The position numbers and the translations under genes were made by a program. Source: Fidelibacterota bacterium (GTDB lineage Bacteria > Fidelibacterota > UBA2242 > JAOZSR01). Taken from it: a stretch of DNA of 35,019 nt. The stretch spans positions 1 through 35,019 of the forward strand of contig JAOZSR010000029.1 of NCBI GenBank assembly GCA_029939575.1, in the 5' to 3' direction. Shown here in pieces: positions 53 to 24,718 of the stretch. Below the pieces are notes generated by a model. It was not told where the DNA came from, ran no database searches, and was given only the letters and a program-made list of their open reading frames with translations. How positions within the stretch are numbered: the first letter of the stretch is position 1; every line of letters begins with the position of its first letter.

Positions 53-2359
53 TTATTTGTCTCTGCTGTAAGAGTAGGGAATATTATCTGGGTCATTTCC
101 CCATTTTTTATTTGGTGTGTTTCCCAGGTTAAATATAAACTCACCACCCTTTTGGATATCTTCGAACCTGATATAGTTATTACTATAATTATTTCCATTT
201 AAACTGGTGGATTGAATGTAGTAATTCTTTGTAGAATTATTTTTAGAGGTTATTGTAAACTTATTTCCATTTTGCAGCGTTATTGTTGCTTTATCAAATA
301 GGGGAGAACCGATTACATATTGATTAATTCCCGGAGTTACAGGGTAAAATCCTAAGGAACTGAATACATACCAGGCTGATGTTTGTCCATTGTCTTCATC
401 GCCACAATATCCGTCAGGTGTTGCGAAATACAATTTTGTGAGAACTTCCCGGATTCGTTTTTGAGTTTTATAAGGTACTCCGGCATAGTTATAAAGATAG
501 ATCATATGTTGTATGGGCTGATTACCATGAGCATAATTTCCCATATTTGTAATCTGCATTTCCCGGATTTCATGGATCACTTTTCCATAGTAAGATTCAT
601 CAAAATCGGGTGGCATTTCAAATACATTATCAAGTTGAGCAATAAATTCCTTATTACCTCCCATCAAATCTATAAGTCCCTGCACATCATGAAATACTGA
701 CCAGGTATAGTGTAAACTGTTTCCCTCGGTAAATGCATCGCCCCATTTCAAAGGATTAAATGGTGATTGAAAACTACCATCTTCATTTCTTCCTCTCATT
801 AAGTTTGTTGAAGGATCGAATACATTCTTGTAATTCATGGATTGCTTATAGAATTGTTTGGCAATATCAGATTTTCCCAATTTTTCAGCCATTTTTGCAA
901 TATTAAAATCAGCGAAAGCATATTCCAAAGTACGAGCCGCATTTTCATTTATTCCAACATCATAAGGAATATATCCAAGTTTATTGTAATAATTTACACC
1001 TTCACGCCCCACTGATTCATAGGGTTTTCCTTCATCAGTAGCAGCATTTTTTAGCATGGCTTCAAGAAGAACTTCTATATCTTCTCTGTCTGTTAAAGAA
1101 CCTTTCATATAAGCGTCGGCAATATTGATAGCAGAATTAGAACCAATCATACAATTTCTATGTCCAGGGCTTGCCCATTCCGGCAACCATCCAGACTCTT
1201 TGTATGTATTTGCAAGACCTTTCATAATTTTACTATTCAGTTCGGGATACATCAGGTTAAAAAATGGAAAAACAGCTCTGAAAGTATCCCAAAACCCATT
1301 ATCAGTAAACATATATCCCGGTAAAACTTTTCCATTATAAGGACTGTAATGTACTACTTCATTATTTTCATTAAACTCAAAAAATTTTCTTGGGAATAAT
1401 AGCACGCGATATAAGCAGGAATAAAATGTTCTGATATTATCAAGGTTACTATCTTCAATTTTAATTCTGCTTAATTCCTTTTCCCAGGCATTTTTAGCAT
1501 TGTTTTTAGTGGTTTTAAATGTATCTTTTCCAATTTCTCTGGATAAATTCAGTTGAGCCTGCTCCGGAGAGATAAATGATGAAGCTACTTTGGCATGTAC
1601 AACTTCACCTCTTTTAGTTTTGAAGCCAATAATTGCACCTACATGATGGCCTTCACTACTTTTAGAATTTTTCTTAAGTTTCCAGTTATCTTTCCAGGTG
1701 TGAGTTATTTCAAAATCCTTATCAAATTCAGCTACAAAATAATTATGAAAATTTTCCGGAACGCCAGCTTTATAATTTCGGCAATAACCAATAATCTTTC
1801 GTTCTTCAGGAATAATTTTTACCATAGAACCTTTATTGAAACCATCTAAAATAATATAAGAAGATTGTGATTCAGGGAAAGTAAATTTAAACTGTGCAGC
1901 CCTCTCTGTAGGGGTTACTTCTGCAACGACATCGTAATCAGCCAAATAGACTTTATAATGATAAGGTTTTACAGTTTCTGCTTTATGTGAAAACCAGGAG
2001 CCTCTTTCATCTTCTTTATATTTTAACTCTCCTGTAACAGCCATTAATGAAAATGCAGCATAATCGTTTATCCAGGGACTGGGCTGATGAGTTTGTTTGA
2101 TTCCTCTTATTTTATTTTCATTGTATTTATAAGTCCAACCATCACCCATAGGTGATGTCATTGGTGTCCAGAAATTCATTCCCCAGGGTGTTGCAATTGC
2201 CGGATAAGTATTTCCATTTGAAAGGGAATACTTCGAATCAGTACCCATCAACGGATTTACATAATCAACTAATGAAATATCATTATTTTCTTTTGCCAAT
2301 CCAGAACCTGATAGACATAGAATAGATAATAATACAAATTTAACTTTTATAAATTTCAT
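53..2359 (-). CDS. GH92 family exo-alpha-mannosidase, secreted
   Basis: A 768-residue protein that should remove terminal alpha-linked mannose from glycans, a calcium-dependent reaction in family GH92. Residues 1-22 form a signal peptide ending GSGLA, so it acts in the periplasm or outside. Family landmarks are DNGFWDTFRA, EWASPGHRNCMIGSNSA, an EGNSLHYTW block with Glu545 in the place of the family's general acid, GNQPIQHMIYLYN, and an acidic GDEDNGQ cluster (Asp654-Glu655-Asp656) where the family has its general base, followed by the SAWYVFSSLGFYPVTPG signature. Length is normal for a single-module GH92. No lipobox or C-terminal sorting domain is seen. It lies downstream of, and parallel to, a GH3 glucosidase and a C69 dipeptidase, which fits glycoprotein use. 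A 260-base gap separates it from GH3, so it may have its own promoter. The family call is firm; the exact linkage is unknown. Confidence 0.95.
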   Translation of the reverse strand: MKFIKVKFVLLSILCLSGSGLAKENNDISLVDYVNPLMGTDSKYSLSNGNTYPAIATPWGMNFWTPMTSPMGDGWTYKYNENKIRGIKQTHQPSPWINDYAAFSLMAVTGELKYKEDERGSWFSHKAETVKPYHYKVYLADYDVVAEVTPTERAAQFKFTFPESQSSYIILDGFNKGSMVKIIPEERKIIGYCRNYKAGVPENFHNYFVAEFDKDFEITHTWKDNWKLKKNSKSSEGHHVGAIIGFKTKRGEVVHAKVASSFISPEQAQLNLSREIGKDTFKTTKNNAKNAWEKELSRIKIEDSNLDNIRTFYSCLYRVLLFPRKFFEFNENNEVVHYSPYNGKVLPGYMFTDNGFWDTFRAVFPFFNLMYPELNSKIMKGLANTYKESGWLPEWASPGHRNCMIGSNSAINIADAYMKGSLTDREDIEVLLEAMLKNAATDEGKPYESVGREGVNYYNKLGYIPYDVGINENAARTLEYAFADFNIAKMAEKLGKSDIAKQFYKQSMNYKNVFDPSTNLMRGRNEDGSFQSPFNPLKWGDAFTEGNSLHYTWSVFHDVQGLIDLMGGNKEFIAQLDNVFEMPPDFDESYYGKVIHEIREMQITNMGNYAHGNQPIQHMIYLYNYAGVPYKTQKRIREVLTKLYFATPDGYCGDEDNGQTSAWYVFSSLGFYPVTPGINQYVIGSPLFDKATITLQNGNKFTITSKNNSTKNYYIQSTSLNGNNYSNNYIRFEDIQKGGEFIFNLGNTPNKKWGNDPDNIPYSYSRDK

Positions 2360-2427
2360 TTTAGATCCTTTTATCTAAATGAGTCATAACTATATATCTG
2401 TGTAGATATTGCATGTAAAATCCCTAT

Positions 2428-2455
2428 TTTATAATTGAATTAATTTTTATATCAA
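2428..2455 (-). promoter_or_regulatory. possible sigma70-type promoter of the GH92 gene
   Basis: On the minus strand TTGATA (2450-2455) is followed after 16 bases by TATAAA (2428-2433). It lies about 70 bases upstream of the GH92 start, which has its own AAAGGA-type ribosome binding site. In DNA this AT-rich such pairs arise by chance, so this is only suggestive. Confidence 0.3.
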
Positions 2456-2619
2456 TTCTTATCAAACCTCTGTTTGCTGATTACATTATCATAAAAAATG
2501 AATTGTTACAACATATATTTTATTGTGACTACTCAGGTCATTTTTCACTCATAAAGGAGAATTCCTATTATCCGGTTTTGAGTAGTGGAAATGCAATAGG
2601 TGACCTAAATAGTTACATT

Positions 2620-5184
2620 TTATTTTACTTCAATAACCTGACTTAGTTTAATATCTTCAGAAGATGAACCGATCATGAATTCAAATGCACCAGGTTCAAG
2701 ATTCCAATTATTAATCGAAGTGTCCCAATATTGGAGTTGATCTTTTTTTACCTTGAATGTCACGGTTTCTGATTTTCCTTTTTTCAGAGAAATTCTCTTG
2801 AAATCAACCAATTGTTTGTTGGGACGTTTCAAAGAAGACTCAAGATCAGTGCAATAAAGTTGGACAACTTCATCACCTTTGGTTTTACCTGTGTTTTTAA
2901 TTTTTACAGATACTGAAATTTCATCATCTGAATAATAAACCGACATCTTGCTGTATTTGAATGTTGTATAGCTCAGGCCATATCCGAATGGATAAAGTGG
3001 TTTACCTTCAAAATACATATAAGTTCGGCCTTTATAAATATCATAGTCATCAAAAGCCGGTAAGTCATTTATTGATTTGTAAAATGTAAAAGGAAGTCTG
3101 CCACCGGGATTGTAGTCTCCAAAGAGGACATCAGCAATAGCTGTTCCACCACTTTCACCGGGATACCAGGCTTCTACAATTGCAGGAATATTTGCATCTA
3201 TCCAGTTAATTGACATTGCACTTCCGGCAATTAGAACCACGACAATGTTTTTATTCTCTTTATATATTTCTTTCAGGTAATTTACCTGCTCTTTTGGAAG
3301 ATCGATAGTTGTTCTATCAAGACCTTCTCTTTCAGTATTTTTGTTGATACCCATTATTGCCAGAACATAATCACTTTCTTTGGCAGCTTTTTTATCTGCA
3401 GCAAACAGATCTGATTCGGTCTCACCGGGAACCTGCCAGAATAATTGACAAATTTCATCATCTCTGTTTACAAAATATTCAAGTTTAACAGCATATTTCT
3501 GTCCGGCTTCCATCTTATATTCAAACTTATCGGTAGTTTCACCACGACCATACCATTCATCAATTTTCAGATTATCATCAATCCAAAATTTGATTCCATC
3601 AGATGATGTGATGGCAATTTTATAGGAGCCTGATATACGAGGTGTAATATAGCCTGTCCATCTGATAGACATAGGTGCATCTGATATTACCGGATCTGGT
3701 GGCTGGCTGACAGCATCATAGTTAACCATATTATCAACTCTGGTTTTAGGTGTGCCTTCCAGTTTCATGTTGTCAAAATATTCAGCATAAAGTCCTGTTT
3801 CCTCTGATTTATCATTACTTAAAAAATCAGTTTCGATTAGACTAAACTCCTTTGATGTTGTTTTCCATTTAACATGAGTAATTTCAGTTTTATTACCAAC
3901 TTTGTTTTTTATTCCTTCCAGAACAGAAACTGCTTTAATAACTGGTTTACCACTATAATCTCCAAAGACGATATTGGCTGCATTTGGTCCAAGTACAGCT
4001 AGTTTTTTAATTTTTCCCCTTTTTAATGGAAGAGTTTTTTTAATATTTTTTAGAAGAACAATTGATTCTCTTGCTGTTTCCAATGCAATGGCTTGATGCT
4101 TTTTTGAACCAATTACATCGGGAGAAATTTTTGAATAAGGATTGTTTTCAGCAGGGTCAAAAATTCCTAGCTTGAAGCGAGAATCCAGAACTCTGTAAGC
4201 AGCTTGATTAATTGTAGATTCTTCAACTAATCCATCTTCATAAGCCTGTAACAGAAAATTTTTATAAATATAATCTCCACATTCCAAATCAAGTCCGGCT
4301 TTTATAGCCATTTCTGCAGCTTCTACTTCTGTACCTGCATAATGGTGGTTCCTCATCAAAGCATGAATTGCACCACAATCACTAACGACATATCCTTCAA
4401 ATCCCCATTCATCACGCAAAAGGTCATTAAGCAGCCATTTGTCTGCTGTACAAGGGACACCATTAATTGCATTATAGGCGCTCATAATTGATTGGGCTTT
4501 ACCTTCTCTGATACAGGTTTCAAATCCTTTTAAGTAATATTCTCTTAAAGCTCGATCTGAGATTACGGCATTACATTCGAAACGGTTATGTTCCTCATTA
4601 TTAGCTGCAAAATGTTTGGGTGTTGAAACCACTTTCAAATATTTTTCATCATCTCCCTGTAAACCTTTTACAAAAGAAACTCCGATTCTACTGGTGAGAA
4701 ATGGATCTTCACCATAAGTCTCAGGTGTACGACCCCATCTTGGATCCCTGGCCATATTTACTGTTGGAGACCAAAATGTCAATACATCACTGAAGGGACT
4801 GATCTGGTCTTTTCCCTGGTTGTAAAAATTCCATTTTGCTCTTGCTTCATCGGAAATGACAGTACCAACTTTTTGAATAAGCTCTGGATTCCAGGTGGCA
4901 GCCAGTGCTATTGCCTGTGGAAATACAGTAAAACGTCCGGGTCTCACAACACCATGTAATGCTTCATTACCATGATAATATTTTTCTATTTCTAATCTAG
5001 GTATTTCTACACTGGTGGCAAGTAACAATGAAATTTTTTCTTCCAATGTTAATCTTCTTAAAAGATCATTAATTCTTTGTTCTTTTGATAAATCAGGATT
5101 TCGAAAAGGTAAATCTGATTGTGCCACTAATAAACTAGTAGTTAATAATAAAATTAAACTGATAAAATACTTTGCTTTAAACAT
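2620..5184 (-). CDS. GH3 beta-glucosidase-type hydrolase with inserted PA14 domain, secreted
   Basis: An 854-residue glycoside hydrolase of family 3, expected to release non-reducing-end beta-linked sugars (glucose or xylose) by a retaining mechanism. Residues 1-21 are a signal peptide (ends LLVAQ). The (beta/alpha)8 domain carries KHFAANNEEHNR and VSDCGAI, whose Asp269 is the nucleophile position. A PA14 domain, starting at GLYAEYF near residue 464 and ending around 585, is inserted in the C-terminal alpha/beta sandwich; in characterised GH3 enzymes this insert helps bind sugar near the active site. The sandwich resumes with AGSAMSINWIDANIPAIVEA and YPFGYGLSYT, and an Fn3-like domain closes the protein (about 745-850). 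An AAAGGA site six bases before the ATG supports the start. A promoter with a perfect palindrome lies just upstream, suggesting repressor control. Family and architecture are firm; substrate is not determinable. Confidence 0.95.
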   Translation of the reverse strand: MFKAKYFISLILLLTTSLLVAQSDLPFRNPDLSKEQRINDLLRRLTLEEKISLLLATSVEIPRLEIEKYYHGNEALHGVVRPGRFTVFPQAIALAATWNPELIQKVGTVISDEARAKWNFYNQGKDQISPFSDVLTFWSPTVNMARDPRWGRTPETYGEDPFLTSRIGVSFVKGLQGDDEKYLKVVSTPKHFAANNEEHNRFECNAVISDRALREYYLKGFETCIREGKAQSIMSAYNAINGVPCTADKWLLNDLLRDEWGFEGYVVSDCGAIHALMRNHHYAGTEVEAAEMAIKAGLDLECGDYIYKNFLLQAYEDGLVEESTINQAAYRVLDSRFKLGIFDPAENNPYSKISPDVIGSKKHQAIALETARESIVLLKNIKKTLPLKRGKIKKLAVLGPNAANIVFGDYSGKPVIKAVSVLEGIKNKVGNKTEITHVKWKTTSKEFSLIETDFLSNDKSEETGLYAEYFDNMKLEGTPKTRVDNMVNYDAVSQPPDPVISDAPMSIRWTGYITPRISGSYKIAITSSDGIKFWIDDNLKIDEWYGRGETTDKFEYKMEAGQKYAVKLEYFVNRDDEICQLFWQVPGETESDLFAADKKAAKESDYVLAIMGINKNTEREGLDRTTIDLPKEQVNYLKEIYKENKNIVVVLIAGSAMSINWIDANIPAIVEAWYPGESGGTAIADVLFGDYNPGGRLPFTFYKSINDLPAFDDYDIYKGRTYMYFEGKPLYPFGYGLSYTTFKYSKMSVYYSDDEISVSVKIKNTGKTKGDEVVQLYCTDLESSLKRPNKQLVDFKRISLKKGKSETVTFKVKKDQLQYWDTSINNWNLEPGAFEFMIGSSSEDIKLSQVIEVK

Positions 5185-5225
5185 GTGTTGTCCTTTTATT
5201 TTTTTATTCTTATTTATGGTTGAAA

Positions 5226-5254
5226 ATATTAGTGTAAATTTTACACTAATGCAA
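5226..5254 (-). promoter_or_regulatory. GH3 promoter with palindromic operator in the spacer
   Basis: On the minus strand a -35 box TTGCAT (5249-5254) and a -10 box TAATAT (5226-5231) are exactly 17 bases apart. A perfect palindrome with 11-base arms and a 1-base centre (ATTAGTGTAAA, 5228-5238; TTTACACTAAT, 5240-5250) fills the spacer and touches both boxes. This is the classic place for a dimeric repressor to block RNA polymerase. The 5' leader would be about 35 bases and contains the AAAGGA ribosome binding site. The regulator is not in the window. Confidence 0.65.
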
Positions 5255-5321
5255 GTAGATAATTTTTTTTGTTATAAATCTGCTCCTATTTATAATTACT
5301 CGGGTTCGTCGCTATCATCTA

Positions 5322-6767
5322 CTATTTATGAAATGTTTTTAAAAGATCCAGGTTTTTCCGGGAGTATTTAGATGCTATCTTAATTGCTTTAGCAGGTTTT
5401 TCTTTACTTAATTTTTTCATTTTATCCAGAAATCCGGCATGTTTATTAAACATTTTCTTTTCTAAAATCCCTATCTCTTTTTTAATCCTATCAATTTCTC
5501 CATAATAATTTTCATCAATTTTAAAATTTTTCTCAGTTATTGAGAAAAAGGCATGGGTAGCCATATTTTGCCTGATTTCAGAAGGTTCAATTGAAAAATG
5601 ATTTTCAATTGCTGATTTATAATCCCCATAATGAAAATCATCGGGAAATTTATTTATACTATAAAATATCGGAACAAAGGGATTAGCACAAGGATGGGTT
5701 GATGAATACCAGAGAACATTTCCAATATCCTTTGGCATTTTGCTGTTAAGTTGTGCAATAAAGCCATATTGCGTTGATTGAGTACATATTGTCCCGTTTT
5801 TTTGCTCATGTATTGTTTTTGAAAAATCCTTATTTTCCAGACTCGTTCCTTCATAATGATATCGCAAAACCCGTGTTAAATCGGACACACTGATTTTTTT
5901 AGACGGAGTAATTAAAAAGGGAAAATTATCATCCAGTTCAAATTTTCCCTTTGCCAACAATTTAAATCCACCCCATTTTCTTTGGATATTATTTGGATGT
6001 TCCAGCGATGTTTTTCTGCCATAAACCTGACGAAAATCAAACTCTCCATCTTCGTTAGGTGAATACCAACCCTTTTTAATGGCAATTTTTATTAAATTCG
6101 GCGAACTGAGAAAATTAATTGTATCTTTCAAGTCAATATTTTGAATTGTATAATAGTTTGGCAATACCATAATTTTATCATCCGGAACTCGTTGGGCAAT
6201 CCAGTTTTTACCCATAACAACAGACAAAACCCAGGCTTCATTTGGATCTGCAATACAGTACGTGCGTCCCGAGTGATTATAACCAAACTCTTCAATCAAT
6301 TTCCCGGCTATCTGAACCGCTTCGCGAGATGTTTTCGCTCTTTCCGCCATAATACGGCGAAGCCAATAGCCAATTCCACCATTTTTTAAGCTAGCAGTTT
6401 TCTCTTTCGATGGGCAGCTGTTGGAAGCAATTGTAACTCCATATTCATTCAAATAACTATCAGAAAAATTCATTCCGGGCATATTAAGCCAGATATAACT
6501 ACAGGTTGTGGGAACCTGCGGAATTCTACCACCATTTTTCAGAATCACCACTTCATCAGCTTTGTGATTTATTCGTGGAACTTTATACATATTAACTATT
6601 TGGTCTCCGTAATCATCTTCATTGTGAGCAAACATTACAGAACCATCCACAGTACAATCCTTGCCAACTAAAACCGAATAACAATTGAATTCATGATTTG
6701 ATTGAGCTGATAATAATTGAATAACCAAAAAAACAATACTAAATATAATTTTTTTCAAATGTCTCAT
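5322..6767 (-). CDS. C69-family (PepD-like) dipeptidase, secreted
   Basis: A 481-residue N-terminal-nucleophile hydrolase of peptidase family C69, which cleaves dipeptides and, in some members, other amide bonds. After a signal peptide ending LLSAQ, mature-region Cys29 (FNCYSVLVGKDCTVDGS) is the predicted nucleophile, exposed by processing of a short leader. Further family blocks are FAHNEDD, WLNMPGMNFSDSYLNEYGV and SNSCPS. The first in-frame ATG, at 6791, has no ribosome binding site. The ATG at 6767 follows GGGAG with an 8-base gap and begins the hydrophobic signal, so it is preferred. The gene is upstream of and parallel to the GH3 and GH92 genes, 137 bases from GH3. A secreted dipeptidase beside glycosidases suggests consumption of glycoprotein debris. 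The family call is strong; the natural substrate is unknown. Confidence 0.87.
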   Translation of the reverse strand: MRHLKKIIFSIVFLVIQLLSAQSNHEFNCYSVLVGKDCTVDGSVMFAHNEDDYGDQIVNMYKVPRINHKADEVVILKNGGRIPQVPTTCSYIWLNMPGMNFSDSYLNEYGVTIASNSCPSKEKTASLKNGGIGYWLRRIMAERAKTSREAVQIAGKLIEEFGYNHSGRTYCIADPNEAWVLSVVMGKNWIAQRVPDDKIMVLPNYYTIQNIDLKDTINFLSSPNLIKIAIKKGWYSPNEDGEFDFRQVYGRKTSLEHPNNIQRKWGGFKLLAKGKFELDDNFPFLITPSKKISVSDLTRVLRYHYEGTSLENKDFSKTIHEQKNGTICTQSTQYGFIAQLNSKMPKDIGNVLWYSSTHPCANPFVPIFYSINKFPDDFHYGDYKSAIENHFSIEPSEIRQNMATHAFFSITEKNFKIDENYYGEIDRIKKEIGILEKKMFNKHAGFLDKMKKLSKEKPAKAIKIASKYSRKNLDLLKTFHK

Positions 6768-6806
6768 AATCAGATCTCCCAGCATTTTCATTTATTGAAG
6801 TTAACA

Positions 6807-6924: not shown

Positions 6925-6953
6925 TTGAAAAAACAATATTAATCTGATATACT
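6925..6953 (+). promoter_or_regulatory. sigma70-type promoter of the lsrG-like/alcohol dehydrogenase pair
   Basis: TTGAAA (6925-6930), a 17-base spacer and TATACT (6948-6953). Predicted transcription starts near 6960, about 35 bases before the ATG at 6995, with AGGAGG in between. Spacing and both boxes are close to consensus. Confidence 0.6.
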
Positions 6954-6994
6954 TATAGGGAAAAGTTCTGCAAAATATGACAAGGAGGATTGCT

Positions 6995-7291
6995 ATGATA
7001 GTTACAACAGTTTTTATAAATGTTAAAAAAGAATATGTTGAAGATTTTATTAAAATCAGCCGGGAAAATCATCTTGGTTCAATTCAGGAAAAAGGAAATT
7101 TTAGATTTGATATTTTACAAGATCCAAATGATCGGACTAAATTCATGTTTTATGAAGCCTATAATACTATGGAAGATGTAGCCCTTCATAAAGAAACATC
7201 TCATTATAAAAAATGGAAAGAAACAGTTGCCGGTTGGATGGCATCAGACCGTACAAAAAGCAATTACAATATTCTTATGCCAACAGAATAG
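6995..7291 (+). CDS. lsrG: LsrG-like phospho-AI-2 isomerase / ABM-domain protein
   Basis: A 98-residue protein of the antibiotic-biosynthesis-monooxygenase fold. It is strikingly like LsrG, which converts phosphorylated 4,5-dihydroxypentanedione derivatives during breakdown of the quorum signal AI-2. Shared blocks are NHLGSIQEKGNFRFDILQD, FYEAY, LHKETSHYKKW and a C-terminal NILMP, with nearly identical length. An in-frame ATG at 6977 lacks a ribosome binding site; the ATG at 6995 follows a full AGGAGG by six bases and is chosen. The gene is co-transcribed with an iron-type alcohol dehydrogenase nine bases downstream, from a good promoter. None of the other lsr genes (kinase LsrK, thiolase LsrF, transporter, repressor LsrR) is in the window. 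The physiological substrate may therefore be another ketose phosphate, or the protein may be a quinol monooxygenase-like relative. Confidence 0.78.
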   Translation: MIVTTVFINVKKEYVEDFIKISRENHLGSIQEKGNFRFDILQDPNDRTKFMFYEAYNTMEDVALHKETSHYKKWKETVAGWMASDRTKSNYNILMPTE

Positions 7292-7300
7292 GAATTATAT

Positions 7301-8452
7301 ATGAATTTTAATTTTACAACTATCCCCAAAATATATTTCGGAAACAGACGAATCGAAATTTTGCCGGAAATAATAAAAAATTATGGAAAAAAACTTCTTA
7401 TTGTAACCGGTTCGTCATTTATCAGGAAAACAGACAAATTAGATTTTTTGACAAAAACAATCTCTGCAAAAAATATAGAATCACATATATTAATAGTTAA
7501 AGGTGAACCATCGCCCTCGACTATAGATGATGCTGTTATAAAATATAAAAACACTGATGTGGTGGTTGCTATTGGTGGTGGAAGTGTTATCGATACCGGC
7601 AAAGCAATCTCTGCGATGTTGCCTCAAAATCAAAATGTAATAAACTTTCTGGAAGGAATAGGAGACGAAAAACATAATGGAATTAAAATACCCTTTATTG
7701 CATTGCCAACTACTTCTGGTACAGGAAGCGAGGCCACAAAAAATGCTGTTTTAAGTATAATTGGGCAAAAGGGATTCAAAAAATCACTACGCCATGATAA
7801 TTTTGTGCCGAATATTGCGATTATTGATCCGGAATTGACCAGTTCCTGCCCTTTTGAAGTTACAGTAAATTGTGGCATGGATACTTTTGCCCAGTTATTA
7901 GGCTCCTATGTTTCCACTCAAGCAAATCCAATGACTGATGCTCTTGCATTAGATGGTATCACCCGTTTTTGCAATAATTTTGATAAAGTTTGTACAGATC
8001 CGGACAATATTGAAACAAGAGCAGAATTGGCTTATGCATCTTTACTTTCGGGGATTACTCTGGCAAATGCCGGACTTGGAATTGTACATGGGTTTGCTTC
8101 GTCTATAGGAGGATTTTTTGATATTCCCCACGGAGTTATCTGCGGTAGTTTATTGGCCGCTGCAACCGAAATTAATATTTTGGAGTTACGTAAATCTTGC
8201 AATTCATCTGCAGCCTTGAAAAAATATGCAAAAGTTGGTCAAATATTAGATCCAGGTGCAGATTCCACAGAATCAAAATATAATACCTTGATTAACACTC
8301 TTTATAATTGGTCTGAAAAATATAAAATCCCATCTTTAAAAGAGTTTGGTATTAAGCATAATGATTTTTTTAGAATAATAAAAAATACAGGGCAAAAAAA
8401 TAATCCAGTAAATTTAAACGATGAACAATTAGAAAAAATACTTAGAAAATAA
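7301..8452 (+). CDS. iron-type (group III) alcohol dehydrogenase
   Basis: A 383-residue NAD(P)-dependent dehydrogenase of the Fe-ADH family, interconverting alcohols with aldehydes or ketones in the cytoplasm. The dinucleotide-binding segment GGGSVIDTGKA (92-101) and the PTTSGTGSEAT block (136-146) are intact. The usual metal ligands are Asp-x3-His-...-His-...-His. Here Asp194, His263 (VHG) and His277 (PHG) are present, but the second ligand is Gln198 (GMDTFAQLL), a variation that some family clades share. The gene follows the LsrG-like gene by nine bases and converges with the VWA gene, ending 36 bases away with no obvious terminator. The tight pairing suggests the dehydrogenase reduces or oxidises the product of the LsrG-like enzyme. 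Family is firm; substrate is unknown. A maleylacetate-reductase-like role is the main alternative. Confidence 0.92.
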   Translation: MNFNFTTIPKIYFGNRRIEILPEIIKNYGKKLLIVTGSSFIRKTDKLDFLTKTISAKNIESHILIVKGEPSPSTIDDAVIKYKNTDVVVAIGGGSVIDTGKAISAMLPQNQNVINFLEGIGDEKHNGIKIPFIALPTTSGTGSEATKNAVLSIIGQKGFKKSLRHDNFVPNIAIIDPELTSSCPFEVTVNCGMDTFAQLLGSYVSTQANPMTDALALDGITRFCNNFDKVCTDPDNIETRAELAYASLLSGITLANAGLGIVHGFASSIGGFFDIPHGVICGSLLAAATEINILELRKSCNSSAALKKYAKVGQILDPGADSTESKYNTLINTLYNWSEKYKIPSLKEFGIKHNDFFRIIKNTGQKNNPVNLNDEQLEKILRK

Positions 8453-22724: not shown

Positions 22725-22762
22725 ATTTAGCAAATTTGAAAATTAATTAAATGAGGAAAAAA

Positions 22763-23668
22763 ATGAAACAACCCACACTTGTTATTGGATCAGTTGCTTT
22801 TGATGATGTTGAGACCCCTTTTGGAAAACGAAACAATGCATTAGGCGGTTCTGCTATATATTTTTCTTTAAGTGCCTCATATTTTACTAATGTTCGTATT
22901 GTTGGCATTGCCGGATCTGACTATCCGCAGGATGCCATAGACTTATTAAAAAATTATGAAATAGATATTGATGGTCTGGAAATCAAAGAGGGAAAAACAT
23001 TTCGATGGGGTGGGAAATATCATGAAGATATCAATTTTCGGGATACATTATATACAGATTTAAATCTTTTCGCTGATTTTAAACCCAATATTCCTGACTC
23101 CTATAAAGAGACTCCTATTGTATTTCTTGGTAACATCCAGCCAGCATTACAAATTGATGTATTGAATAATATGAAAAAACCTTCCTTCGTGGCACTTGAT
23201 ACAATGAATCTTTGGATTAATACTGCCAAAAAGGATTTACTCAAAGTTTTACAAAAAATTGATCTTTTATTAATCAATGACACTGAATTAAGGGAATTAA
23301 CAGGAGAATTAAATTTATTAAAGGGACTGCAGAATCTCCATTCTCTTGGTATTAAATATGTTGTCATAAAAAAAGGTGAACATGGTGCATATCTCAGCCA
23401 TCAAAGCAATCTGTTTTATGTACCCGCATTTCCTGTATTACAGCCAACTGATCCTACCGGAGCCGGTGATTGTTTTGCTGGCGGAATGATTGGATATTTG
23501 GCAACATGTGAAAATTTTGATTTTAACTCTCTCAAAAAGGCTCTTGTATATGGTGCAATTATGGGTTCAGTCTGTGTAGAGCATTTTAGTATAGATGGGC
23601 TTCTAAACATCAATGAGAATGAAATAAAAAACAGATTTCAAAAATTACATGATTTAGTAACAATATAA
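22763..23668 (+). CDS. PfkB-family sugar/nucleoside kinase
   Basis: A 301-residue ribokinase-like kinase. The C-terminal signature PTDPTGAGDCFAGGMIGYLA has the catalytic Asp236 and the anion hole, and NALGGSA near residue 28 is the substrate-side glycine motif. The ATG at 22751 overlaps the ribosome binding site; the ATG at 22763 has TGAGG six bases before it and starts the first strand (MKQPTLVIGS). mtnA follows 30 bases downstream, so the sugar is plausibly a nucleoside-derived pentose such as methylthioribose, 5-deoxyribose or ribose-1-phosphate. The true methylthioribose kinase MtnK belongs to a different fold. Family is firm; substrate is inferred from context only. Confidence 0.9.
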   Translation: MKQPTLVIGSVAFDDVETPFGKRNNALGGSAIYFSLSASYFTNVRIVGIAGSDYPQDAIDLLKNYEIDIDGLEIKEGKTFRWGGKYHEDINFRDTLYTDLNLFADFKPNIPDSYKETPIVFLGNIQPALQIDVLNNMKKPSFVALDTMNLWINTAKKDLLKVLQKIDLLLINDTELRELTGELNLLKGLQNLHSLGIKYVVIKKGEHGAYLSHQSNLFYVPAFPVLQPTDPTGAGDCFAGGMIGYLATCENFDFNSLKKALVYGAIMGSVCVEHFSIDGLLNINENEIKNRFQKLHDLVTI

Positions 23669-23698
23669 TTCTTCTAAACCTTAAATGGCAGCTAATCT

Positions 23699-24718
23699 AT
23701 GATAAAACCAATTTTTTTTAAAGACAATCAACTATATATTGTTGATCAGACCTTACTTCCAACAAAATATAAATTAATTAAAATCAAAGATCATATTGAT
23801 ATGGCAAAGGCTATTAAAAGATTGTCAATCAGAGGAGCACCTGCTTTGGGAATTGCCGGAGCTTATGGTCTGACAATTGGCTTACAAAAATTCATTAATG
23901 AAAATAAAACATCGTTTTTTAAACAGATGGAAATTATTTCTTCAGAATTAATTGATACACGACCAACCGCTGTAAATTTAGCCTGGGGAATTGATAGAGT
24001 ATGTAAATTGGCAAAGGCAAATAATTTCTTGTCAGTAGATAAAATCTGGAATTTAATGTTGCAGGAATCAAAGAATATTCATTCTCAAGATATTGCCATG
24101 TGTGAATCTATTGCTAAAAACGGATATGAAATAGTACCTGAGAAAGGTGCAGTTTTAACCCATTGCAATACAGGCGGACTTGCAACTGGCGGCCTTGGAA
24201 CCGCACTTGGAGTGATTATCAGAGCCTTTCAAAATGGAAAAAAACCTCACATTTTTGTTGATGAAACCCGTCCACTACTCCAGGGAGCAAGACTTACAGC
24301 CTGGGAATTAATGGAAGAAAAAATTCCCTGCACCCTATGTACTGATAATATGGCTGCCTATCTGATGAGGAATAAATCCATTAAAATGGTAATTGTTGGA
24401 GCAGACAGGATTGCAGCCAATGGAGACACAGCAAACAAGATAGGCACTTATGGATTAGCAATATTAGCTCATTTCCATGGAATTGATTTTTATATCGCTG
24501 CTCCAACTTCTACAATTGACAAATTAACTAAAAAAGGTTCACATATTATTATCGAGGAGAGAAAAGGAAGTGAACTAAGTAGGATTGGTTCACAACAAAT
24601 AGCACCTATTAATTGCAAAACGATATCTCCGGCATTTGATGTAACTCCAGCAAAATTAATAACCGGTATTATTACTGAAAAAGGAATTAATTACCCTCCA
24701 TACAATTTTTTTAAATAA
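23699..24718 (+). CDS. mtnA: S-methyl-5-thioribose-1-phosphate isomerase (aIF2B-like)
   Basis: A 339-residue isomerase that turns methylthioribose-1-phosphate (or 5-deoxyribose-1-phosphate) into the matching ribulose phosphate in S-adenosylmethionine by-product salvage. RGAPALGIAGAYG, THCNTGGLATGG (catalytic Cys156), DETRPLLQGARLTAWEL and GADRIAANGDTANKIGTY (catalytic Asp236) are intact; these two residues match Cys160 and Asp240 of the Bacillus enzyme. The ATG has no clear ribosome binding site, perhaps relying on the PfkB gene 30 bases upstream. No mtnB, C, D, K, N or P is in the window, so only one step of the classical pathway is visible. A ribose-1,5-bisphosphate isomerase is the main alternative. 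Confidence 0.92.
   Translation: MIKPIFFKDNQLYIVDQTLLPTKYKLIKIKDHIDMAKAIKRLSIRGAPALGIAGAYGLTIGLQKFINENKTSFFKQMEIISSELIDTRPTAVNLAWGIDRVCKLAKANNFLSVDKIWNLMLQESKNIHSQDIAMCESIAKNGYEIVPEKGAVLTHCNTGGLATGGLGTALGVIIRAFQNGKKPHIFVDETRPLLQGARLTAWELMEEKIPCTLCTDNMAAYLMRNKSIKMVIVGADRIAANGDTANKIGTYGLAILAHFHGIDFYIAAPTSTIDKLTKKGSHIIIEERKGSELSRIGSQQIAPINCKTISPAFDVTPAKLITGIITEKGINYPPYNFFK

Follow-up and report, generated by a model that had tools for sequence, protein, structure and literature searches.

A conserved pairing of LsrG-like and iron-type alcohol dehydrogenase genes across eleven named phyla

Results

The Locus and Its Two Genes

This study concerns a two-gene locus in a 35,019-nucleotide stretch of Fidelibacterota DNA (contig JAOZSR010000029.1, assembly GCA_029939575.1; the whole stretch is hereafter called the window), drawn from a 3.79-Mb draft genome that is 95% complete. 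On the forward strand at positions 6995–7291, family profiles, a tree and a structure model identify a gene for a 98-amino acid LsrG-like protein with an ABM domain, a putative small-carbonyl isomerase of what we call the pair-type (recognized by its Trp74, see below). After a spacing of 9 nucleotides there follows, on the same strand (7301–8452), a gene for a 383-amino acid iron-type alcohol dehydrogenase (Fe-ADH, or ADH for short), identified from profiles, an alignment and a model, with an Asp194-Gln198-His263-His277 site and a K160xS162xR164 motif. An earlier reading made from the letters alone (the sequence-only reading) had placed an LsrG homolog and an Fe-ADH at 6995–8452 without neighboring lsr genes, and both genes are indeed there: the LsrG-like gene lies between a C69-type dipeptidase gene (whose product scores below that model's cut-off) and the Fe-ADH gene, and no lsr gene adjoins the pair. 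The best reading of this pair is a stand-alone, transferable cassette, separate from the autoinducer-2 (AI-2, lsr) system.

Upstream of the LsrG-like start, a Shine-Dalgarno sequence (AGGAGG, forward strand, read from the sequence) occupies 6983–6988. An alternative in-frame ATG at 6977 would give a protein of 104 amino acids, but precedes this ribosome-binding site, so that 6995 is the better start. The near-consensus promoter that the sequence-only reading had assigned to the pair is present as a candidate sigma-70-type site (TTGAAA, 17 nucleotides, TATACT; 6925–6953, forward strand) matching 10 of 12 positions, one of two such matches in the region; as a promoter of the pair's own it is less secure, because promoter-like sites are no commoner here than in shuffled sequence (16 in the region vs. 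14.4 ± 4.1). A terminator-like site was looked for in the pair's region and none was found. We infer that the two genes are co-transcribed as one unit.

The Pair Recurs Across Phyla

Using an alignment of four LsrG-like proteins, we scanned 84,980 species genomes and retained the best 80 of the 239 relatives returned (a scan of genome contigs with the ADH protein alone as query found no relative). The sequence-only reading had raised the question of how often the two genes adjoin across phyla: in 71 of these 80 closest loci, an Fe-ADH gene lies directly downstream on the same strand, and these loci come from 11 named phyla. They include 39 Pseudomonadota (21 of them Nitrosomonas-type), 15 Bacteroidota, 5 Nitrospirota and 4 Cyanobacteriota, as well as single pairs from Neomarinimicrobiota, Latescibacterota, Planctomycetota, Spirochaetota, Chloroflexota, Lentisphaerota and Fibrobacterota, and one further pair that is unassigned. 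The pair was also found on a plasmid of the cyanobacterium Stanieria that is typed as conjugative. Across the 73 pairs that include this plasmid and the window, the gap between the two profile matches has a median of 8 nucleotides and is at most 30 nucleotides in 69; one ADH is split over two frames (L051) and another is cut short (L036). Among phage records, two relatives were recovered, one from a Salmonella record and one from an Escherichia record.

Co-occurrence was then counted in genome samples: 294 Pseudomonadota genomes for the LsrG-like gene and 398 for the ADH (including one seed genome, G177, chosen for having the pair), and 395 Bacteroidota genomes (including the seed G153, chosen likewise). 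LsrG-like matches occurred in 28 of the 294 Pseudomonadota genomes, and were divided by hand on bit score into 21 pair-type (at least 126 bits), 4 lsr-type (104–108 bits) and 3 other ABM proteins (~50 bits), a division that residues 74, 75 and 88 bear out (see below). At one lsr-type locus (L203), one scanned neighbor is a DeoC/LacD-type aldolase, as LsrF would be. The ADH was present in 20 of the 21 genomes with a pair-type protein, adjacent in 12 and elsewhere in 8 (in one case on the same contig, at a distance of 3 kb). In the reverse direction, the LsrG-like gene was present in only 20 of the 69 Pseudomonadota genomes (among 398) that have the ADH, and in Bacteroidota the ADH occurred in 55 genomes and the LsrG-like gene in 2, both times adjoining the ADH. 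Leaving out the seeds, these counts become 19 of 20 (11 adjacent) and 19 of 68 in Pseudomonadota, and 1 of 54 in Bacteroidota. A binomial estimate for 20 of 21 is about 1e-14 or 4e-12, values which ignore kinship and are not taken as proof.

On the evidence of the closest loci and of the Pseudomonadota co-occurrence sample, adjacency exceeds chance, and a functional link between the LsrG-like protein and the Fe-ADH is very probable. The LsrG-like gene thus depends on the ADH, but hardly the reverse. As the ADH also occurs alone in large clades, it probably has a role of its own, to which the LsrG-like protein would be an addition.

One Pseudomonadota genome (G779) holds, at C2:36689–39181 (L189, L207, and L208), a full-length pair-type LsrG-like gene together with two partial matches within 2.5 kb; one partial match carries an inner stop, and no ADH match was found in this genome at the cut-off used.

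A Separate Branch of LsrG-Like Proteins

The sole NCBIfam match of the window's LsrG-like protein is LsrG (PRK10486.1), by its NCBIfam name a phospho-DPD (P-DPD) isomerase, with a score of 106.9 bits under a cut-off of 135. Five other ADH-paired proteins score 81.6–102.2 bits and the unpaired protein of L181 scores 85.8, compared to 191.8 and 169.7 for the reference LsrGs of E. coli and Klebsiella; this cut-off is not decisive alone, as two lsr-operon LsrGs, from Sinorhizobium (109) and from Thalassospira (121.3), also fall below it. The window protein is 49% identical to E. coli LsrG, and the PDB entries nearest to it in sequence are 2omo (Nitrosomonas europaea) and the LsrG structures 3qmq (E. 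coli) and 2gff (Yersinia pestis). Its structure model (predicted local distance difference test score, pLDDT, 95.9) is closest to 2omo (Z 19.6, root-mean-square deviation [rmsd] 0.6, 97 aligned residues, 52% identity), followed by 3qmq (Z 19.1, rmsd 0.7, 96 aligned), and is further from ArqI (PA0709, 8eif; Z 15.9, rmsd 1.3, 94 aligned, 20% identity).

In a tree of 88 LsrG-type proteins whose root is not known, 5 lsr-operon LsrGs are split from the 83 others (74 ADH-paired, 9 unpaired) with a support of 100/97, and the proteins without a neighboring ADH are dispersed over the tree rather than gathered in a single clade. The two groups also differ at individual sites: at position 74, all 83 have Trp where 5/5 lsr-operon LsrGs have Cys; at position 75, the 74 paired and the 9 unpaired proteins have Arg or Lys and the lsr-operon LsrGs Val (5/5); and at position 88, Gly in 81 of 83 stands against Lys in 5/5, the window protein being an exception that keeps Lys88. 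Positions 77–81 likewise differ. The Trp74 count in this set is biased upward, because one of the two search patterns contained Trp74, but the Pseudomonadota sample was found by profile and gives the same division, with Trp/Arg/Gly at positions 74/75/88 in 21/21 pair-type vs. Cys/Val/Lys in 4/4 lsr-type proteins. Common to both groups are N25, E32, N35, R37, F38, D39, F50, Y53, E54, H65, T68, H70, Y71 and R86, each present in 5/5 lsr-operon LsrGs and missing from at most one of the 74 pair-type proteins. At the level of sequence, pair-type LsrG-like proteins stand as a branch of their own beside the lsr-operon LsrGs, with diagnostic residues.

The Fe-ADH Partner

The 383-residue protein matches PF00465 and PF25137 (3.4e-40 and 5.4e-31), as well as 18 ADH models of NCBIfam, every one below its cut-off, and its nearest solved relatives by sequence profile are methanol dehydrogenases, then AdhE and 1,3-propanediol dehydrogenases. 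Its model (pLDDT 91.0) has an ordinary Fe-ADH fold, with the highest Z against ADH/D1 (5yvm; Z 48.7, rmsd 2.3, 375 aligned), followed by FucO (1rrm; Z 47.3, rmsd 2.1, 365 aligned) and the Oenococcus 1,3-propanediol dehydrogenase 4fr2 (Z 47.0, rmsd 2.2, 368 aligned).

Fe-ADHs have four metal ligands (as described in PMC5125639), and these four canonical columns are occupied in the window protein by Asp194, Gln198, His263 and His277, so that Gln replaces the first His. The exchange of a metal-ligand His for Gln198, already claimed in the sequence-only reading, is therefore confirmed, and extends to the whole ADH subfamily: Gln198 is found in 72/72 aligned ADHs with a letter at this position (window included), Asp194 in 73/73 and both His in 71/71, and K160, S162 and R164 are invariant in 73/73. 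Judged from this alignment, Gln198 marks the subfamily as a whole, and is neither a decay nor a peculiarity of the window genome. It need not abolish metal binding, because the aligned 4fr2 has Gln at the same position and is listed in a review as crystallized with nickel (PMC5125639).

Together with a Bacteroidota branch, the 73 paired ADHs make up a single clade (100/100), from which a Klebsiella EutG-like protein and a Pseudorhodobacter Fe-ADH are excluded, although the root relative to E. coli FucO is unsure, as the FucO branch is very long, for no evident reason, in the ADH trees. Outside this main clade, the ADH of the Chloroflexota pair (L056) is a more distant Fe-ADH, and perhaps represents an independent pairing. 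Inside it, two branches come without an LsrG-like gene, one of Bacteroidota and one of Pseudomonadota (27 rows in a quick tree). Directly before a lone ADH of the latter branch lies a short, weak LsrG-like match (L175, 2685–2822, reverse strand; 29 bits), perhaps the remnant of a lost partner.

Within the window's phylum both genes are rare. Among 149 genomes, the LsrG-like gene turned up in that of the window and in one other; this second genome (G132) also carries the pair, while the ADH subfamily was found in 3 of 245, again including the window's own, the third (G011) being without an adjoining LsrG-like gene. In the ADH tree, the window's protein is placed beside those of two Bacteroidota sister loci, L024 and L082 (98/92), away from the other paired protein of its phylum. 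Taken with the pair on the conjugative-type Stanieria plasmid, this grouping points to horizontal transfer, and it suggests that the two genes may have been transferred jointly; G+C content shows no foreign origin (30% and 34% for the two genes, 33% for the window).

Searches for the AI-2 System

LsrG homologs are readily taken as a sign of AI-2 signaling, and we searched for other components of that system. No luxS match was found in the window genome, and luxS was absent from all 49 pair-bearing genomes searched, whereas the same search found it in 5 of 14 control genomes; this count is weakened by kinship and draft incompleteness, and the 21 Nitrosomonas-type genomes are not among the 49. 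The corresponding binomial estimates are 4e-10 at the control rate of 5/14 and 0.006 if the rate is set to 0.1; they too disregard kinship, and are not taken as proof. In the window genome, a search for lsrF gave no match and one for lsrK none at the cut-off, both run without a positive control. The two lsrK-like matches are other sugar kinases, one passing the glycerol kinase cut-off and the other most similar to xylulokinase (323.4 bits against a cut-off of 380), and they score 94 and 124.5 with the AI-2 kinase model vs. a cut-off of 528. Overall, no full lsr operon emerged from the searches for lsrK, lsrF and luxS, which supports the proposal of the sequence-only reading that the pair is a stand-alone unit outside the lsr system (lsrA, lsrB, lsrC, lsrD and lsrR were not searched). 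With a large LsrG-like branch tied to a dehydrogenase in genomes where no luxS turned up, such genes should not be read as evidence of quorum sensing.

Neighboring Genes

To look for a third conserved gene, we clustered the neighbors in 81 loci (the best 80 and the Stanieria plasmid), in which the widest family reached 9 loci, six of them Nitrosomonas-type. This family is a GGDEF protein (two members scanned), followed by an ABC transporter ATPase (8 loci) and an Slp lipoprotein (8 loci, mostly Nitrosomonas), and the first two are common kinds of protein. Pfam searches on 20 pair neighbors gave mixed families with few repeats, namely LOG-type and MFS; a FIST-domain gene, that of L018, is also among the 20. 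The LOG-type (lysine-decarboxylase-like) gene adjoins the pair in L031 (3865–4473) and L060 (7501–8037), on the upstream side in one locus and on the downstream side in the second, and an MFS transporter gene lies directly after the ADH in L024 (1618–3237) and L082 (7514–9076), the Bacteroidota loci that group with the window ADH.

Around ADHs without an LsrG-like gene, eight Bacteroidota loci (L121, L122, L123, L125, L130, L132, L134 and L135) have an ADH of the same subfamily in a row with cobU, cobT and/or cobS, which places a dehydrogenase of no assigned function in a vitamin B12 setting. Across the Bacteroidota ADH branch, 12 of 18 extended loci hold at least one of these three genes within 3.5 kb (families identified on one or two members). 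A small gene family adjoins the ADH in 19 of 29 loci (L090–L117 and L120), mostly facing the ADH 3′ end, and encodes a SET-domain protein (one member scanned).

In the window itself, the region divergent from the pair (53–6791, reverse strand) holds genes for a GH92 glycosidase, an 854-amino acid GH3-like glycosidase (judged by eye) and the C69-type dipeptidase. Further away (22751–24718, forward strand), a PfkB-type sugar kinase gene adjoins mtnA (methylthioribose-1-phosphate isomerase), a signature of methionine or 5-deoxyribose salvage.

Discussion

A Putative Isomerase-Reductase Unit

The pair is probably a pathway for some reactive sugar-like compound other than AI-2. Since most of the LsrG residue set is kept, the simplest reading is that the LsrG-like protein shifts a carbonyl in a different small dicarbonyl or hydroxyketone, and the conserved residues taken with the ADH fold make plausible the isomerize-then-reduce chemistry that the sequence-only reading had proposed for a phosphorylated ketose or a reactive dicarbonyl. 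In such a scheme, the LsrG-like protein would use the conserved LsrG pocket to move the carbonyl, by proton transfer, within a small alpha-dicarbonyl or alpha-hydroxyketone, and the Fe-ADH would reduce the resulting isomer with NAD(P)H or, in reverse, oxidize it. The likely purpose would be removal or salvage of a reactive carbonyl by-product, with the ADH serving a core function by itself and the LsrG-like protein widening its range to an isomer that the ADH could not use directly. We favor this isomerase-reductase unit tentatively, at slightly under even chances, with catalysis, redox direction and substrate all inferred.

Several observations weigh against it. Nine of the 80 closest LsrG-like loci are without a nearby ADH, although two of these hold fewer than 900 bases downstream. 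Among the sampled genomes that have the ADH, no LsrG-like match was obtained in 53 of 55 from Bacteroidota and in 49 of 69 from Pseudomonadota, and as the ADH is so common without the LsrG-like protein, the two do not form an obligate pathway. The genes also lie apart in 8 of the 20 Pseudomonadota genomes that have both, and in five of these eight cases (L181, L182, L184, L195 and L196, the L195 match being partial) a FIST-domain gene directly follows the LsrG-like gene. The FIST domain is a proposed ligand-sensing family, so that such neighbors hint at sensing rather than catalysis. Because positions 74–81 differ, the pair-type pocket may also differ from that of LsrG. Finally, the LsrG-like ABM protein ArqI of P. 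aeruginosa had no appreciable role in glyoxal resistance (PMC12274486).

Alternative Explanations

The main alternative gives the LsrG-like protein a different role, that of a non-enzymatic carbonyl-sensing partner that would bind and control the ADH. ArqI interacts directly with PqsA (PMC12274486), and as it had no appreciable part in glyoxal resistance, the protein here might similarly regulate the ADH and not catalyze. The five FIST loci fit this role, as do FIST-domain genes after the ADH in L014 (a cyanobacterium) and L018 (Neomarinimicrobiota, two overlapping frames), with another near the ADH in L023. However, the residue set common with LsrG is kept almost without exception, ArqI is structurally more distant from the window protein than LsrG is (Z 15.9 vs. 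19.1), and unlinked genes are something that a complex of the two proteins tolerates but does not suggest. We regard a purely sensing role as unlikely.

Less probable still is that the pair disposes of AI-2 or phospho-AI-2 (from other species or from ribulose 5-phosphate), with the LsrG-like protein isomerizing and the ADH reducing it. The 49% identity to E. coli LsrG and the Lys88 that the window protein shares with lsr-operon proteins would fit, and reduction has been proposed as a means of AI-2 inactivation for QQ-2, an unrelated short-chain dehydrogenase/reductase (PMC4942472). Against this stand the absence of luxS from the 49 pair genomes and of lsrF matches and above-cut-off lsrK matches from the window genome, as well as the 100/97 split between pair-type and lsr-type proteins with its Trp74 vs. 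Cys74 and Gly88 vs. Lys88, repeated in the Pseudomonadota sample.

The cob neighbors raise a third alternative, namely that the ADH serves an amino-alcohol or cofactor pathway, e.g., for the aminopropanol part of cobamides, and is fed by the LsrG-like protein. The association with cobU, cobT and cobS (12 of 18 extended loci) belongs to one Bacteroidota clade, however, which is a single branch (100/100) whose genomes gave no LsrG-like match, and there is neither a cob gene among the 20 scanned pair neighbors nor a recurrent third gene beyond 9 of 81 loci, which makes this proposal improbable, a little more so than AI-2 disposal. That the adjacency is inherited neutral gene order without shared function is very improbable: many loci do come from one genus (21 of 80 Nitrosomonas-type), but the pair spans 11 named phyla with mostly different flanking genes, the genes co-occur even when unlinked, and the window ADH sits beside those of two Bacteroidota (98/92) instead of that of its phylum's other member, which suggests joint transfer.

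Returning to the isomerase-reductase reading, it is tempting to speculate that pair-type LsrG is the older and wider family form, an ABM isomerase with an interchangeable partner (the Fe-ADH in this pair, a glyoxalase in arqI-gloA2, or a FIST-domain sensor in certain Pseudomonadota) in carbonyl-handling modules, and that LsrG is a late recruit of the lsr operon. We hold this to be a long shot, about on a par with the sensing role, but if true, a carbonyl-salvage step common to more than 10 phyla would have gone unnamed. As a two-enzyme system, the pair is small and lends itself to expression, and a crystal structure seems to exist already for one of its members (2omo), so that a missing step of reactive-carbonyl metabolism becomes open to direct assay.

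Comparison with Known Systems

Our searches of the open-licence literature turned up no description of the pair (most subscription journals lie outside its coverage). No paper in it mentions both LsrG and an iron-containing alcohol dehydrogenase, two contain the name ABM together with that ADH name and two LsrG together with Nitrosomonas, 2omo and NE0621 appear in none of the matches listed, and an iron-containing alcohol dehydrogenase is absent among the matches listed for cobS and cobamides. A parallel that favors the isomerase-reductase reading is the arqI-gloA2 operon of P. aeruginosa (PA0709-PA0710), where an LsrG-like ABM gene likewise shares a two-gene unit with a carbonyl-detoxifying enzyme and is induced specifically by glyoxal (PMC12274486). 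There the partner is a glyoxalase, however, where in the window it is an Fe-ADH, and ArqI is the more distant protein in structure.

Within the Fe-ADH family (FucO, the Bacillus methanol dehydrogenases and 4fr2), the window ADH has the common fold, and shares with 4fr2 the Gln at the aligned position. It differs in its low identity (24–28%), its position below every NCBIfam ADH cut-off, its own clade (100/100) and its KxSxR motif.

LsrG (3qmq, 2gff) resembles the window protein in length, fold and the 14 residues kept in both groups. The window protein differs in lacking adjoining lsr genes and a detectable luxS, in its separate branch and in its score below the NCBIfam cut-off, and pair-type proteins carry Trp74 in place of Cys, Arg or Lys75 in place of Val and, in most cases, Gly88 in place of Lys (Lys88 is retained in the window protein). 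Closest in structure is the DUF176/ABM protein 2omo of Nitrosomonas europaea, whose record names only a putative ABM protein, but which is the best structural match and itself pair-type by its Trp74 and Gly88.

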